Positions 42,434 to 48,931 of a stretch of DNA of 64,000 nt are shown here, piece after piece. Source of the stretch: Meandrina meandrites (Eukaryota; Cnidaria; Anthozoa; Scleractinia; Meandrinidae); assembly GCA_963693305.1 (NCBI GenBank), contig OY855903.1, positions 51,049,150 to 51,113,149 of the forward strand, read 5' to 3'. The notes under the pieces were generated by a model. The model searched no databases. It was given only the letters and a program-made list of their open reading frames with translations, and was not told where the DNA came from. The stretch's first letter is position 1; each line of letters starts with the position of its first letter. The translations under genes were made by a program, and so were the position numbers.

Positions 42434-42435
42434 TA

Positions 42436-42464
42436 CAGTACCGCTCAAAAGTAAGTTACCACCC
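42436..42464 (+). repeat. Tc1 element left TIR
   Basis: 29 bp that match the reverse complement of 48901-48929 without a difference. The CAGT...CAAAAGT layout is typical of Tc1-like ends. Confidence 0.92.
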
Positions 42465-42559
42465 TCTCGCGAGACGAGATTCTCGTCTCGAGAGACGAGA
42501 GTCTCGTCTCGAGAGACGAGAGTCTCGTCTCGAGAGACGAGACTCTCGTCTCGAGAGAG
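42465..42559. repeat. Palindromic GAGACGAG array beside left TIR
   Basis: Alternating CTCGTCTCGAGAGACGAGAG blocks form about four nested palindromes, each about 21-23 bp. The same motif family abuts the right TIR (48817-48900). It may be a set of transposase-binding sites or a cruciform. Confidence 0.88.
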
Positions 42560-43695
42560 TGTTAAAAAACTGTAAGTACACGGCACGAACTTCTCGCGAG
42601 ACTTCAATTGCCTTTTGTTAACTAGGCAATAAGCGAACGAGCGCCGGTCAAGCAAAGATTGCTGTGTTCACGTTAAAAATTGGCCCGACGCTGCTTTCGC
42701 CTTTCACGTCTTAGCTAATCTCTTCCTCAAATGTCGGTTGTAAAAAGAAATCTTACATTGTATTCGTGAAAATTTTGCAAAGTTTTATGCCTACATTAAA
42801 ATCAAAATCCTTTCGTTCGCGGCTTTCCAATTCATGTTTCTATCACTCGCTTTATACACTGCACAATGCCTATCGATCTCAGCAAGCTTCGTTGTCGACT
42901 AAAACCGCGTGCTGTGAAAACAAACATCCACAGATTTACTGATTTAAAGTTTTTATATTTGAAATCTTAGTTCGATCATTTATGGATTTCAGATTGTTGA
43001 TAGTTTCTATAACCGGAGCAGATTCTTCGCGTCGACGATCAAGCGAACACACAGTTGTTGCTAAGCGCGTTCGATGCTCTCAAGGCGTTTTGATTTAACG
43101 ATCGCTCATCAGATCTTGTTTACTAGTTGCAGAGTAAGTTCAACACCAGTTAATCAAACATAAACACAACATATGAGTGTCTTTCCACTGGGCAAAGGTT
43201 TGAAACCAGTTTATATTTCGCTGAGCGAAAACCACGAAGCAACGATTCTATACGCATTGTTTATTCACTTGTTCGGCGTTGCTAAGCACGTGCGAAACTT
43301 CGCATGCAAGAGTGAATTTGGCAGAGCCGTTTCAGGCACAACGCAACTACATGTAACAAATCTAAGGGGTATTATAAATCTTTGGTAATTAAAGGAATAT
43401 TTAAAGACAGGTTACTTCAACTTATATTTCAAATTCTGCGATTGCTCTCACGGTGTTTGGATACATCTATTGTTTTCTAGTGAATACCTTTCTAGTTGCT
43501 TAGCGCGTGCAACACCGGTTAATTTGGCTTAGACTCAATAAATCTGCTTTTCGCTTACATCTTAAAGCATTGGGAGGTTGATTTAAAACAGCTCTTCTTT
43601 AGGGACTAGAGATAGTTTTTATTGTTGGTCATAACTTTTGACAATGTGGTGGCTCCTAAAGGAGCCGTTGTGGTTCTGAAAGAACCGTTGGTGTT
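42560..43695. other. Left internal region of the Tc1 element
   Basis: No gene is recognised in about 1.1 kb between the palindromic array and the transposase stop. A short 71-codon frame at 43173-43388 shows no family features. Confidence 0.5.
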
Positions 43696-44715
43696 TTAAT
43701 GCCCAGAGGCACTGCCTTCTCGTTCGATAACTATCGGCACAACCTTCTGAAGGTGGTTGATGTATGCCTGGCACTTCTCCGCCGTCATCCGTTCCCTCCA
43801 GAACCGCCTAATGCCGTCAAGCAGCTCGTCTTTGGTCATGGGCTTCACAATTGTGCGAAGGAAGTTCTTCAGTTCATGCCACAGCATCTCGATTGGGTTT
43901 AGGTCTGGGCTCTCCGCGGGGGTCTCGAACCACTGTATGCCATTGGTCTCGATAAAGGCTTTCGCCAACCTGCTGGTGTGCTTCGGGTCATTATCCTGCT
44001 GGAATCTGTGACCATCGGGAAAGTTTGTGTGGATGAATGGAAGCAGGGTTCTCTCTAGGATTTCTTCGACGTAAAATTTGGCATCCATATTGCCAACGAA
44101 CATGAGGACTCTAGTCGCACCACGCTTGGAAATCCCGGCCCAGATGTGGACTTTGTAAGGATGCTTGGGGCGACCCTTCAGTTTCGGAGGCTCCCACCTG
44201 CGACGGAAACAAATCCTCGCGTGCTTTTCCATGTGAACGGAACACTCGTCGGTGAATATGACGTTGTCGAACGTCTCTCCGTCCTCCTCGCACTTCAAAC
44301 AAAACGCCAAGCGTTTTGCGCGGTTTGCCTCTTTAATGAGCTGGCAGTACTTGGTTCCGGTCTGCACCCAGCCAAGTTTTTTACGAAGGCGCTTCACTTT
44401 GCTTTCCGAAAAGTCGATTCCGAACTCTTCGAAGATTTTTCTGCGGAGGTTGGGCGCGGTCAGCTCGTCGTTCCTCTCCATCTGGGCGTCAATGAAGTTC
44501 ATAATCGGCAGTGTCACCTCTTCAGCAGGTCGGCCAGGCAGCGGGGTATTTTCAAACGATTGCCTCTCGTGAAAACGTCTCAAGAAACGTCTTACACTAA
44601 GGCGACTGATTTTACAATCGTCTTCTGCAAGTGTTCTAACTATTTCACTGATGTTTTTGTTTCTTTCACGAAGCCTCACAATTTTTGCTTTCTGCTCGTG
44701 CGTTAAACGACCCAT
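43696..44715 (-). CDS. Tc1/mariner transposase (DD34E)
   Basis: 339 residues from the ATG at 44715 (MGRLTHEQKAKIV); an upstream in-frame ATG at 44793 is less likely, since the helix-turn-helix usually starts near the N-terminus. It cuts and pastes the element at TA sites. The paired HTH region (about 1-110) is followed by a GRP-type linker. The catalytic core has VIFTDECSVH (D156), FQQDNDPKHTS (D241) and SPDLNPIEMLWHELK (E276), with 34 residues between the last two. All three acids are present and the frame is intact. It shares a 266-bp divergent upstream region with the BEN-domain gene. Confidence 0.93.
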   Translation of the reverse strand: MGRLTHEQKAKIVRLRERNKNISEIVRTLAEDDCKISRLSVRRFLRRFHERQSFENTPLPGRPAEEVTLPIMNFIDAQMERNDELTAPNLRRKIFEEFGIDFSESKVKRLRKKLGWVQTGTKYCQLIKEANRAKRLAFCLKCEEDGETFDNVIFTDECSVHMEKHARICFRRRWEPPKLKGRPKHPYKVHIWAGISKRGATRVLMFVGNMDAKFYVEEILERTLLPFIHTNFPDGHRFQQDNDPKHTSRLAKAFIETNGIQWFETPAESPDLNPIEMLWHELKNFLRTIVKPMTKDELLDGIRRFWRERMTAEKCQAYINHLQKVVPIVIEREGSASGH

Positions 44716-44981
44716 GGTAGTCAAATGATCGTAAAATCTCAAACAAACTCCAACAGAAACAAATTTGAGACAATTAGGATCACTTGCAGCCAATGAGTGA
44801 ACATAGATGTTAAGTAATTATATTCAATAAAAAATTAGCATTTTACGCAACCAATCGATAACACGTATTTTCGATCCGATTTAAACAATAGCAACCCAAC
44901 CTTGCACTATAAAGGTCACCTCAACCGTACACTAGATCACAGTTAGTCAGACTTACACTTGACACATCAGTTAAAATCAAA
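44716..44981. promoter_or_regulatory. Divergent promoter region, TATA box at 44908
   Basis: It lies between the ATGs of the transposase (minus) and BEN gene (plus). TATAAAG at 44908-44914 is 68 bp upstream of the BEN gene ATG, a good spacing for a short leader. No clear TATA box was seen for the transposase. Confidence 0.5.
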
Positions 44982-45171
44982 ATGGCCGCACGCAAGTTAT
45001 GCCGTGAAACTCAAATCCCTTCAATGGCACTTTTCTTCTTCTTTGCCGAGGAGACAACAGGCATCGCGCCATCTCGTCGAATCATTGAGAAAAACAACAT
45101 TGCTGTTGGAAATGAAGTCACCGTCAACTGGGAAGGGAAACTAGTACCGGCTAAAATTCTAGCCCTAAGTG
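44982..45171 (+). CDS. BEN-domain protein of the Tc1 element, exon 1
   Basis: ATG at 44982 in AAAATGG context; the exon ends at a GTG|GTAAGT donor in phase 1. The 63 residues include RRIIEKNNIAVGNEVTVNWE and KLVPAKILALSG, a small beta-rich module resembling the chromatin-reader-like N-termini of some BEN proteins (weak). Five exons (44982-45171, 45271-45398, 45750-45839, 46110-46187, 46411-47241) total 1317 nt, or 438 codons plus stop, with frame kept throughout. Confidence 0.75.
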
Positions 45172-45270
45172 GTAAGTACTATGTCGTTAAGTGGAAGCTT
45201 TTCTGTGGCTCAATTAACTTAATCAGTTTTTATTGATTCTTACCTTTTGCTTGTTCTTGTTTAATTGCAG

Positions 45271-45398
45271 ACAACTCCAAACAGTTGAGTGATAAAGAGA
45301 ACGCCTGGTTGGCCGAAAACTACCCACAGCAACTGAATCGAGAACAAGAAGACGACGAAGACGAAGACCAAGAACCAGTGAAGAAAAAGCCTCGTTCC
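45271..45398 (+). CDS. BEN-domain protein, exon 2 (acidic)
   Basis: TTTAATTGCAG acceptor and TTCC|GTAAGT donor, entering in phase 1 and leaving in phase 0. The sequence includes KENAWLAENYPQQLNR followed by a Glu/Asp run and KKKPR. The short acidic-then-basic stretch suggests a disordered linker with a nuclear localisation signal. Confidence 0.7.
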
Positions 45399-45749
45399 GT
45401 AAGTACAGACTTGTTGTTTCAAAGTCAATTAAGAATCTAGCACGCGCTCGAATCCTTCCATGTGTTGTTACATCACTGTGAAGAATTGTTTTTCACGCGT
45501 TAAGTCAATTAGCACTCAAGCACGCGCTCGAATCTATCTTTCAATGCGAGTTGAAGGCTCTGTCGCGCTTAGTCATTGTAAGTTATATAGTTTGGAATCA
45601 GGAGTTGAGTTAACACAGCACGCGCTATGCCACGCTTAAGTAAAATTATCGCAAGTGATATAAAATTGGATCAGGAGTTAGTTATCGTAAGTTAAATAAT
45701 TTTGGATCATGAATTACGCTTAGATTGCTATCATTTTTCTTGGTTTTAG

Positions 45750-45839
45750 AATACAACAAACAAAAAGCAGAAAGAAGTAAAGAAAACGAAAGAGAAGAAG
45801 GAAAAGAAGCCGAAAAAAACGAAAGAGGACAAGAAAAAG
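45750..45839 (+). CDS. BEN-domain protein, exon 3 (Lys-rich)
   Basis: TGGTTTTAG acceptor and AAAAAG|GTAACT donor, phase 0 to 0, 30 codons. Almost all residues are Lys, Glu or Thr (KKTKEKKEKKPKKTKEDKKK), a likely nuclear localisation or nucleic-acid contact. Confidence 0.65.
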
Positions 45840-46109
45840 GTAACTGTATGATCTATTTGTTTACGGTTAATCGAGCCTGTCAACAAGTATCCCGAATTAA
45901 AATAGTTGTTTACAAAACGAGGTCGACCGCTTTTCGCTTTGTTTAAACAATTCTTTGAAACGAAGGCGGCCCGCTTTTAATTAGTGCACTATTGTTCCTT
46001 TAGTTCTCACACATTGTTTGAATGAGTGTTGAGGGTTTGACATCGGAGTTATGTTTAGGTAGCTGGAAAATTGCTCATTAACTTTTGTGTTGTATTTTGG
46101 TATTTAAAG

Positions 46110-46187
46110 GAATGTCGCGTGGTCATGTCCGCCGAACCGCCTTCTCCTGTTGTCGTTGAATCAGATGAGGAGGATGAAGGAGAGGAG
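46110..46187 (+). CDS. BEN-domain protein, exon 4
   Basis: TATTTAAAG acceptor and GAGGAG|GTAATA donor, phase 0 to 0, 26 codons. The sequence includes VMSAEPPSPVVVESDEEDEG, an acidic, Ser/Pro-containing linker. Confidence 0.65.
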
Positions 46188-46410
46188 GTAATATGTTGTT
46201 TTTACCACTTACGACGAACCTGTTATTCAGTGGTCATTTCATAAACAAATTTGTTCTATCGTCTGAGGGGGAAGTTAGCCACACATTTTCCGCATATTGA
46301 TTGAAAAGGGTCGACTGGGTAGTGTTTAAGGAAAAAATCTAGCTTATTATATTTTGATTGAAGCGTTTCTTTGATTAACTAATTAATCAATTTATGTCTA
46401 TTTTCCGTAG

Positions 46411-47241
46411 GATGACCAAGATTTGCGGACGTATTCTTCTCCGCCCGGGTCGCCACTTTCAAGCATCTCGCTCAGTTCCCTGGCCTCTGATGTTACCGAT
46501 CCTCCGCCTCCAGCCGCTTACCTGGACGAATTATTGGACGAGAACCTTGGCTGCCTGACGGGAGAGCAGAAGTTAGATCGGATTCTAGAGAATCAAAACG
46601 TTTTATTTAAGCTAGTGTCAGATTTATTAAGGGAGACAAGGGAAAGGAAATGTTGTTGTGATCGGGATAGGGTGCCTAAACCTAGTTTGGGGAGGGAAAA
46701 TTCACTCAATTCTGGTTCGGGTTTTTCAGACAATCTCGGGAGGGTTAGTGCTTTTTCATTTTCAAGTATGGGTGGGGATAGTGGCAGGGATGGGCTCAGT
46801 ACAATTGGTGTTGGGGATATTAGGGAATCCAGGGTTGGGCCAGTTAGCTCGGATTGGGATATTGGGGAAACCAGAGCTGGATCAGCTGACTCTAACAATT
46901 CAGGTTTGGGTGATGGGTTCGACATGGAGGATTTAACTGGGGAGGCAGGGGACGGGCTTTTGCGGGAGGCAGTTAAGATTAAAAGTAAGAGTTGTAGTGT
47001 AGGGAATTTTGCGGGTAAACTTTTGCAAGTCATTTTTCAACCCGGGGAGCTGGAGGGGCGTAATTGTTCAGGGACCAGGGGGAAAAGGTCATTAGACCAA
47101 GGGAAGCTGGATATAATTAAAAAATATGTTTTTAAACTATATCCGTGTGGGCAAGCACTGGAAGATGCGCAATGGCGCAGGTGCGTTATCGCCATAGACG
47201 AGGTTCTACGGAGGGGAAAGAAGGGTGCAAGGCAACAATAA
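46411..47241 (+). CDS. BEN-domain protein, exon 5 (BEN domain and stop)
   Basis: It follows a TTTTCCGTAG acceptor and encodes 276 residues. The first 180 are Ser/Gly/Asp-rich with a coiled segment (KLDRILENQNVLFKLVSDLL). The last 100 form a BEN-like domain: SVGNFAGKLLQVIFQPGELEG, RNCSGTRGKRSLDQGKLDII, KYVFKLYPCG and WRRCVIAIDEVLRR. BEN domains bind DNA or chromatin proteins in animals and occur in some large DNA viruses. In this element it may bind the palindromic or 200-bp repeats, or affect chromatin at the insertion; both are inference. Confidence 0.78.
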   Translation, partial: DDQDLRTYSSPPGSPLSSISLSSLASDVTDPPPPAAYLDELLDENLGCLTGEQKLDRILENQNVLFKLVSDLLRETRERKCCCDRDRVPKPSLGRENSLNSGSGFSDNLGRVSAFSFSSMGGDSGRDGLSTIGVGDIRESRVGPVSSDWDIGETRAGSADSNNSGLGDGFDMEDLTGEAGDGLLREAVKIKSKSCSVGNFAGKLLQVIFQPGELEGRNCSGTRGKRSLDQGKLDIIKKYVFKLYPCGQALEDAQWRRCVIAIDEVLRRGKKGARQQ

Positions 47242-47649
47242 GTTTTTTAATTAGCAACAAAATTTGGTGGTTGCGGGGGGCGGTTCTTTAAGTAAAAATG
47301 TAGGTGTTTTAGGATTTTTGTAAGTTTGTAAATTTGTTTGTTGTCTAGGACGTTCACTAAGAGATTGCAATAAGATTTAACTGTAGGTGTAAAACGACTA
47401 AGGAAGGCACGAAAGATTTTTGTATACTCATTACTAATAGATAGCAGTACTATTAATTAAGTAATAAGTAGTTCATACACATATAAGTTCTTCATCGATA
47501 ACTTGTAACTAGAATAAAACAGATAATAAAAAAAATGTTAGACTTAATGAAGCAAGATTCGCTTGTTCGCGTGTGTAATGTAAGCTAATGTAATATGCAA
47601 CATTTTGTTTTCAGCGCATTGGCAAAAATACACGTATTAATTAACGTTG
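47242..47649. other. 3' flank of the BEN gene
   Basis: No gene is seen. AATAAA occurs at about 47514-47519 (TAGAATAAAACAG) and could serve as the polyadenylation signal. Confidence 0.5.
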
Positions 47650-48680
47650 TTGCTTTCAAAAGCATCTTGATTTTCGATTTTTTAGACTGCTTTCATTGAT
47701 GTTTTAGATTTGGGATGGTAGTAATAGGGTCAAGCGATGCTCTAACTTTGATTTGAAAGCTTTCAGATCTTATCGCTCGTGTATATTTATACACGACATG
47801 CAAATTCAATGCGCTGTCTGTGTGAGATAAAATGACCTGTGAAAAAGTTGCTCATTTACGCTAGCGCTTTCGCTGTGGTATAGATTTTGACTTTCTAAAA
47901 GATTACTCATTCACGATTTACATTTGTGATGCGACGCTACAACTTTCGATTCAAAAGCTTTCCGTGTTCGACCGCTCGTTTACACGACATGCAAATTCAA
48001 TGCGCTGTCTGTGTGAGATAAAAATAACCTGTGAAAAAGTTGCTCTTTTACGCTAGCGCTTTCGCTGTGGTATAGATTTTGACTTTCTAAAAGATTACTC
48101 ATTCACGATTTACATTTGTGACGAGAGGTGACGCGACGCTACAACTTTCGATTCAAAAGCTTTCCGTGTTCGACCGCTCGTTTACACGACATGCAAATTC
48201 ACTGCACTGTCTGTGTTAGATAAAAATAACCCGTGAAGATATTGTACTGTATTGCAACCGCTTTCGCTAGAATCTACAAATGCAGATATTCGAGTTTTGA
48301 GATTGCTTTCATTGATATTTTGCATTTGTGGTTGTAGTCATAAAGTGTAGCGACGCTACCAAAAGCTTTCCGACTTCGCTCGAAGTTTATAAACAAAATG
48401 CAAATTCAATGTGCTGTCTGTGTGAGATAAAAATAACCTGAGAAGATATTGCACGTTGCTGTCGCAAGCGCTTAAGCAAGTGTGTAGATCGATTTTTTAG
48501 ATCACTTTCATTCACGTTCTGTTTTTTGTCGACTGCAATGAAGTCTAGCGACGCTAAAACTTTCAAAAAAAAGCTTCCTCGAGATCGCTCGATCGATAAA
48601 CATTTCAAGCAAATAAATATGCAAATTCCATGCGCTCAGTCGCTGGTTTCCTTTAAGTTGGATAAGACATACCGATTATT
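47650..48680. repeat. Degenerate ~200-bp tandem array with ATGCAAAT octamers
   Basis: About five diverged units carry ATGCAAATTCAATGCGCTGT, GTGTGAGATAAAAATAACCT and TTTACGCTAGCGCTTTCGCT. ATGCAAAT starts at 47798, 47989, 48191, 48408 and 48619 (spacings 191, 202, 217, 211). Adjacent units around 47830-48190 are nearly identical; the outer ones are older. ATGCAAAT is the classic POU/octamer site. It occupies the subterminal region of the Tc1 element. Confidence 0.85.
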
Positions 48681-48816
48681 GCGAACAAACCAGCAATCTT
48701 TCTTACAAGGCAAGTTCTTTGAACTAGTCAAAACACAAAAGCACTCGCGAGAGTTCAACCGTTTTTCACGCAAGATAATCGCTCGTAATTTATTCCAAAA
48801 TTTTCGCTTCACTGAT

Positions 48817-48900
48817 TCTCTCGAGACGAGAGTCTCGTCTCTCGAGACGAGAGTCTCGTCTCGAGAGACGAGACTCTCGTCTCGAGAGAAACGAGACGAG
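48817..48900. repeat. Palindromic GAGACGAG array beside right TIR
   Basis: TCTCGAGACGAGAGTCTCGT and variants repeat three to four times and end against the TIR. It is the counterpart of 42465-42559 but with different unit order, so it is not simply part of the TIR. Confidence 0.88.
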
Positions 48901-48929
48901 GGGTGGTAACTTACTTTTGAGCGGTACTG
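48901..48929 (-). repeat. Tc1 element right TIR
   Basis: 29 bp, the reverse complement of 42436-42464, followed by TA. Confidence 0.92.
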
Positions 48930-48931
48930 TA

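Follow-up and report, generated by a model that had tools for sequence, protein, structure and literature searches.

A two-gene Tc1 element carrying a BEN-domain gene in the coral Meandrina meandrites

Tc1 (DD34E) transposons such as Sleeping Beauty end in terminal inverted repeats (TIRs) of about 30 bp, are flanked by a TA duplication and encode a transposase with a Sleeping Beauty-like catalytic domain. Described members have a single open reading frame (ORF) and a mean length of about 1.3 kb (PMC7325037), and most Tc1/mariner elements measure 1.3-2.4 kb and carry a lone gene (PMC7731502; all papers are cited here from excerpts). The element described below, at positions 42436-48929 of a 64,000-nucleotide stretch of the Meandrina meandrites genome (the window; C1:51049150-51113149 of the 551-Mb genome, C numbers denoting its chromosomes), has the same ends, duplication and catalytic domain, but at 6.5 kb it carries a second, spliced gene that encodes a BEN-domain protein. 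A preliminary description of the window had already set it against Tc1 elements that normally have one gene, and the cited work bears out that contrast.

Like the window element, PIF/Harbinger transposons carry a second gene for a DNA-binding protein; this protein binds the TIRs and is required for transposition, and non-autonomous copies are served in trans (PMC2836001). In one reconstructed system the second protein was needed for nuclear entry of the transposase, while in a yeast study of Ping co-expression left localisation unchanged (PMC2836001). Since PIF/Harbinger is a different superfamily, with a 3-bp target-site duplication and a Myb-like ORF1, whereas the window element is of Tc1 type with TA and BEN, it is not a member, and we use PIF/Harbinger as a working analogy for what the BEN protein may do. 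The organisation of DNA transposons has itself been called flexible, and multi-ORF members are described from ciliates: TBE and Tec are, like the window element, of Tc1/mariner type, with DD34E and several ORFs, but for Tec a site-specific recombinase is named and BEN is not (PMC7325037; compared by description only).

BANP, BEND3, BEND6 and Insv have the BEN fold in common with the protein of the window element, BEND3 BEN4 being the closest, and the element ends contain BANP-type half-sites; these four are, however, host proteins, whereas the element protein has a predicted Tudor-like N-terminus and low identity to BANP. Polydnaviruses likewise carry BEN genes on mobile DNA and are reported to have moved BEN-coding sequences from wasps to Lepidoptera (PMC4190172), but in viral particles and with no link to a transposase (again compared by description only). 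We found no BEN-carrying DNA transposon in the excerpts of the open-licence literature that were searched, Repbase lying outside the search, in agreement with the preliminary description, which knew of no Tc1 family with a BEN partner; in the excerpts concerned, BEN occurs in a reference only (PMC5704228) or with respect to zebrafish genes (PMC11075544), in neither case on a DNA transposon. The coral miniature inverted-repeat elements of PMC2872659, considered as possible relatives, are piggyBac-related with TTAA sites and differ from the family described here.

The window element is a two-gene Tc1 element, and its BEN gene belongs to the element family: the gene stands beside the transposase in two lineages, each of which has one full element with the gene inside its TIRs, and it is under constraint between the lineages. 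The element is complete at 6,494 bp, with both TIRs present and both genes open (Table 1), and its ends lie exactly where the preliminary description had placed them. The TIRs (CAGTACCGCTCAAAAGTAAGTTACCACCC) are perfect 29-bp matches with a TA beside each outer end. The 29-bp sequence has 219 genomic matches at up to three mismatches and the reversed pattern, used as a control, has none, so that it represents a real repeat terminus. The transposase ORF (43696-44793, minus strand) is open, matches Pfam DDE_3 at 1.4e-12 and finds Sleeping Beauty in the PDB at 4.5e-18. Across 15 aligned sequences D182 and E302 never vary and D267 hardly ever does, and because 34 residues separate D267 from E302 the transposase is of the DD34E type. 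The element thus has the DD34E transposase and TA-flanked TIRs of Tc1, but departs from a typical, non-defining trait of the group, namely a single ORF within about 1.3-2.4 kb.

The second gene, divergent from the transposase, is a predicted five-exon model of 438 residues that stays in frame and has GT/AG at all four introns. Its BEN domain (PF10523) scores 25.4 bits (25.5 for exon 5 alone) and clears the Pfam gathering cut-off of 23.2, though not by much; the domains of two diverged relatives, described below, score 28.7 and 25.4 bits, also above the cut-off. A profile built from the protein and its relatives matches BEND3 BEN structures at 3e-15. The structure model of exon 5 (block pLDDT, the predicted local distance difference test, 78-96 over residues 181-260) has the BEN fold, its best PDB match in Foldseek being 7w27, the BEND3-BEN4-DNA complex (E 8.8e-5, probability 1.00). 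Exon 1 models as a Tudor-like domain, for which the hybrid or interdigitated type was compared. Comparison with other sequences lends the five-exon model some outside support: homology to exon 1 in the two diverged loci runs as far as residue 62, no more than two residues from the exon boundary in the window; a predicted Acropora digitifera protein (P0020) runs from '...KILALS' into 'DN...' in the same way as the spliced window protein where exons 1 and 2 meet; and two near copies each keep 7 of their 8 splice dinucleotides, 14 of 16 in all. The preliminary description had proposed a Tc1 element of 6.5 kb with a five-exon, 438-residue gene, a BEN-like C-terminus and an upstream region common to both genes, here 266 bp; all of this stood, the BEN assignment by both profile and structure.

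A DNA search with the transposase returned 15 genomic matches, four of them at 95% identity or above: the window, C9:26.45 Mb, C7:15.48 Mb and C9:11.84 Mb. All four have BEN sequence in the same place and orientation, and the window's copy alone among them combines two TIRs with two open genes. At C9:26.45 Mb the left TIR is present, the transposase is broken, and the BEN gene contains one internal stop and an altered exon-5 acceptor; at C7:15.48 Mb both genes are broken and no TIR was found within the stretch examined; and C9:11.84 Mb retains its right TIR, with the transposase frame open from residue 1 to residue 362. Two more distant loci, C1:33.08 Mb and C2:43.91 Mb, form a second lineage, with transposases about 56-65% identical to that of the window. 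In both, BEN exon 1 (56-59%) lies head-to-head with the transposase and exon 5 follows about 1.7-2.1 kb past exon 1; the BEN exons are open and the transposases broken. The first of these loci is bounded by related, TA-flanked TIRs (CAGTACC.../CAGAACC...) that agree with each other at 28 of 29 positions, giving a computed span of 33080754-33087496, or 6.7 kb, of which all but about 80 bp were covered; at C2:43.91 Mb there is no convincing TIR within the stretch examined.

Relatives also occur in other sources, other cnidarian genomes having been covered as single proteins. With the 438-residue protein as query, 20 proteins besides its own record were found at E of 1 or less, the weakest at 4e-6, and the second-lineage BEN exon found 21, the first probably its own record. 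The sources named among these matches include the stony corals Oculina patagonica and Acropora digitifera, the latter for the N-terminal part. In one of these sources the two genes are neighbours as well: the protein P0015 joins a BEN domain, oriented as in the window, to an antisense reading of a related transposase (48% over 147 residues when compared with the antisense frame of the window). A transposase (P0050) and a BEN protein (P0149) have in common a jgi source and a longest contig of 6,356 bases, which suggests that they share one contig; this is a single coincidence among 120 of 878 rows listed and is suggestive only. A scan of viral contigs with BEN and transposase profiles gave no confirmed relative.

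In a tree of transposases one BEN-carrying lineage comprises 16 rows (support 100/98) and the other, its sister group, 13 rows (100/100), the two being joined at 95/75, with most rows being single proteins from elsewhere; the BEN-less loci described below fall far outside both groups. The simplest reading of these sequences, although not proven, would be a single gain of BEN in the common ancestor of both lineages. Proportions of synonymous (pS) and non-synonymous (pN) differences, and the rate ratio dN/dS, were obtained by the Nei-Gojobori method. Between the window and the two second-lineage loci, exon 5 gives pS of 0.76 and 0.75 and pN of 0.44 and 0.43, the BEN domain 0.80 and 0.79 against 0.34 and 0.36, and exon 1, in one pair, 0.89 against 0.29; for the transposase, compared with a relic at C1:3.39 Mb, the values are 0.76 and 0.13. 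Synonymous sites are saturated, so no exact ratio can be given between lineages. Among recent copies dN/dS is 0.65 for exon 5 (window and C9:26.45 Mb), 0.56 for exon 5, 0.80 for the BEN domain and 0.21 for exon 1 (the pair on C1 and C2), and 0.53 for the transposase (window and C9:11.84 Mb). Purifying constraint on BEN, a gene whose dN/dS across copies the preliminary description had proposed to determine, is therefore clear between lineages but weak, or relaxed, among recent copies; the latter is expected where most copies decay after insertion. BEN also changes faster than the transposase, since the identity between window and second lineage is about 40% for exon 5 and 56-65% for the transposase.

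The preliminary description had also held that copies without the BEN gene would speak against a two-gene element. Set against the four near copies and two diverged relatives that keep it are short copies that appear to have neither gene and a relic with only a transposase. Convergent pairs of TIRs less than 12 kb apart, drawn from the 100 places listed among the 219 matches, number 25; 23 of them span 0.3-3.2 kb, one is the window element and one spans 8.6 kb. Short copies with the same TIRs appear to carry neither gene, and the sequence of one was read directly: this 2.16-kb copy (L078) keeps TIRs, arrays and parts of the internal repeats and has no similarity to either gene. The other short pairs are taken as non-autonomous, having no entry among the listed transposase or BEN matches, lists that are lower bounds. 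The 8.6-kb pair (C13:11401938-11410562) likewise has no entry among the transposase or BEN matches listed, and is perhaps a non-autonomous copy that carries an insertion. The relic at C1:3.39 Mb (transposase 77% identical) was considered as a BEN-less member and set aside: it has no BEN match in 9.9 kb, but is uninformative because it has no convincing TIR and its DNA similarity to the window element is confined to the surroundings of the transposase.

A related Tc1 lineage, with 37-57% protein identity to the window transposase and TIRs of the form CAGTAT[TC]GT..., appears to lack the gene. No BEN match was found at 11 of its loci, each spanning 1.5 kb either side of the transposase match, and at eight (L053, L054, L057, L059, L061, L063, L065 and L067; start extrapolated for L054 and L063) the upstream TIR lies about 0.5-0.9 kb from the transposase start, L060, L062 and L066 being unusable for this distance. 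At C7:15293536-15298212 two of these BEN-less relatives lie in opposite orientation within 5 kb, both with stop-free transposase matches, one of which is without the first 69 residues.

Just inside each TIR of the window element lies an array with a 21-bp period, built from TCTCG and its complement CGAGA; these arrays and the predicted Tudor-like exon 1 are new here. The window contains 121 TCTCG/CGAGA sites, with 33 in the two 130-bp element ends, 15 elsewhere in the element and 73 outside it, and TCTCGCGAGA occurs twice in the 64 kb, both times at the element's left end. TCTCG is the preferred half-site of the BANP BEN domain, with TCTCGCGAGA as its in vivo context (PMC10206803). CTCGAG is present in 8/8 ends examined of the two BEN-carrying families and their derivative and in 0/9 ends of the BEN-less lineage, and perfect 8-bp palindromes exceed all of 200 shuffles at 2/8 BEN-lineage ends, both of the window element. 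As a lead from sequence, the BEN protein may bind these TCTCG/CGAGA arrays.

In the model that we favour, with a probability of roughly 55%, the BEN protein serves transposition as an accessory factor at the element ends. An ancestor of the Tc1 lineage would probably have acquired the BEN gene together with its introns, hence at the DNA level, and kept it since. The transposase would recognise the 29-bp TIRs and insert at TA, and the second gene would provide a nuclear-type protein with a Tudor-like domain, a lysine-rich stretch, a helix and a BEN domain. The BEN domain would bind the arrays of TCTCG/CGAGA that lie inside the two TIRs, chromatin contact and multimerisation would come from the Tudor-like and helical parts, and the protein might then pair or open the ends for the transposase and perhaps also regulate the shared promoter, with non-autonomous copies using both proteins in trans. 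The preliminary description had offered a DNA-binding accessory factor, a silencer of host defence and a captured host gene; the first fits best, and capture of a host-type gene would explain where the BEN gene came from and is compatible with an accessory role. A wider form of the proposal, which we advance tentatively, is an animal two-component branch of Tc1 in which the Tudor-BEN protein is a dedicated end-binding factor on helically phased TCTCG arrays, with transposase, BEN and array motif having diverged together. If confirmed, the BEN branch would show that Tc1/mariner, the textbook one-gene transposons, can turn two-component as PIF/Harbinger did; it would be a long-lived animal branch with a second, constrained gene for a chromatin- or DNA-binding protein, in which the joint evolution of protein specificity and end arrays could be tested. 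It is relevant, too, to the origin of some of the many BEN genes in this genome.

The same protein might instead act outside the transposition machinery, as a regulator that sets the chromatin state on the CpG-rich arrays or the shared promoter, either protecting the element from silencing or repressing it in trans and so limiting copy number. Published work portrays BEN proteins as transcription factors linked to chromatin (PMC10206803), and the predicted Tudor-like N-terminal domain, the 266-bp upstream region common to both genes and the CpG-rich ends all suit such a role; we nevertheless think it rather unlikely, as it leaves unexplained why arrays are kept at both ends of a copy that has neither genes nor promoter, unless chromatin at the ends affects mobility. 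We think it improbable that the element only carries the BEN gene along, as a passenger of host type that was captured and gives the element no benefit: a Tudor-like exon with a weak BEN match nearby recurs in the genome, short copies outnumber the full element (23/25 among the TIR pairs listed) and C9:11.84 Mb lost most of its BEN coding sequence while its transposase is open, but the gene holds the same position across lineages whose synonymous sites are saturated and its protein is conserved, and a gene of no use to the element would be expected to decay or disappear over such a span. We give almost no credence to chance nesting, whether of a BEN gene or mobile element in one Tc1 or of a Tc1 in a host BEN gene; the unusual size alone might suggest it, but the same join recurs in copies on other chromosomes, the same gene order in diverged relatives, and the fused protein P0015 comes from another source, so that nested insertion and mere proximity are contradicted.

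Several observations weigh against the accessory end-binding model. BEN base contacts and preferences vary between proteins (PMC10206803, section 7), the window BEN domain is 20-23% identical to that of BANP in fold alignments, and BEND3, a nearer relative than BANP, is cited as binding CCCACGCG (PMC10206803). Arrays are not confined to BEN carriers, since CpG-rich subterminal repeats, of TTCG type, occur in the BEN-less lineage too, and palindromes only equal the highest shuffle at 4/8 BEN-lineage ends and fall below it at 2/8, both of the second lineage. The whole comparison sets two BEN-carrying lineages against one without BEN. In a tree of BEN domains, with long branches, weak forks and a bootstrap that has not settled, the two Tc1 BEN lineages do not group and no non-element BEN gene stands out as the nearest. 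Recent BEN pairs have dN/dS of 0.56-0.80 in exon 5 or the BEN domain; at C9:11.84 Mb the transposase is open although almost the whole of BEN exon 5 and part of exon 1 are gone; and the search with BEN exon 5 DNA found, beyond the near copies, C4:24.54 Mb (78% identity), where the BEN stretch is broken and no transposase match occurs within the 3.4 kb examined. The Tudor-like match of exon 1 comes from structure alone, and the model behind it, of 63 residues, has modest confidence (pLDDT 74).

Table 1 Features of the window element, in window positions
Feature	Position	Strand	Evidence
TA target-site duplication, left	42434..42435		sequence
Left terminal inverted repeat, 29 bp	42436..42464	+	219 genomic matches, control 0
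Left subterminal array, 21-bp period, TCTCG/CGAGA half-sites (TCTCGCGAGA, TCTCGAGAGACGAGAGTCTCG)	42465..42558		18 half-sites within 42436-42565
Isolated TCTCGCGAGA palindrome	42592..42601		motif search
DD34E transposase coding sequence, likely ATG 44715, frame open to 44793	43696..44715	-	Pfam, PDB, alignment
266-bp intergenic region between two divergent genes	44716..44981		sequence; head-to-head order also in two diverged relatives
BEN gene exon 1; residues ~14-62 (45021-45167) model as Tudor-like barrel	44982..45171	+	gene model, structure model
BEN gene exon 2, acidic and basic stretch	45271..45398	+	junction of exons 1 and 2 also in predicted Acropora protein P0020
BEN gene exon 3, lysine-rich (possible nuclear localisation signal)	45750..45839	+	gene model
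BEN gene exon 4	46110..46187	+	gene model
BEN gene exon 5: predicted helix, low-complexity linker, BEN domain, stop	46411..47241	+	gene model, Pfam
BEN domain (residues 362-430)	47008..47214	+	Pfam, profile and structure matches
Internal ~200-bp imperfect tandem repeats	47669..48636		partly common to 2.16-kb non-autonomous copy
CTCGCGAG palindrome, near right end	48744..48751		motif search
Right subterminal array, TCTCG/CGAGA half-sites	48817..48889		15 half-sites within 48800-48929
Right terminal inverted repeat, 29 bp	48901..48929	-	repeat search
TA target-site duplication, right	48930..48931		sequence

Judged from its sequence context, the 266-bp intergenic region is a possible bidirectional promoter of both genes; a scan of it for bacterial-type promoters, irrelevant here, gave one weak site at chance level. 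The internal tandem repeats contain ATGCAAATTCAATGCGCTGTCTGTG and are about 65-75% similar to those of the 2.16-kb copy.

Other BEN genes are present in the genome, their count resting on one protein query. Two further open BEN frames, L023 (342 residues, minus strand) and L026:985-1797 (271 residues), have no Tc1 transposase match within the roughly 3.3 kb examined and are candidate host genes. The Tudor-like domain of exon 1 has 26 genomic matches listed. At seven places outside Tc1 elements (C4:23201742, C6:19585531, C8:22619547, C8:21159877, C1:43689748, C1:41937328 and C1:40625279) it is accompanied by a weak BEN match (E 6e-4 to 0.12) about 1.7-2.4 kb off on the same strand, so that genes combining a Tudor-like domain with BEN may recur as a type at dispersed places. 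Two BEN gene copies on different chromosomes, L040:127-3222 (C1:41.93 Mb) and L039 (C7:18.15 Mb), are 98% identical over 2.2 kb and share an end, GTGACCGTGAACGGG..., that has subterminal TAACGG repeats and many short dispersed matches. This looks like a second, different repeat family carrying a BEN gene, in which no transposase was seen, and since the two copies sit in an apparently different family, Tudor-BEN genes may be recurrent accessory modules.

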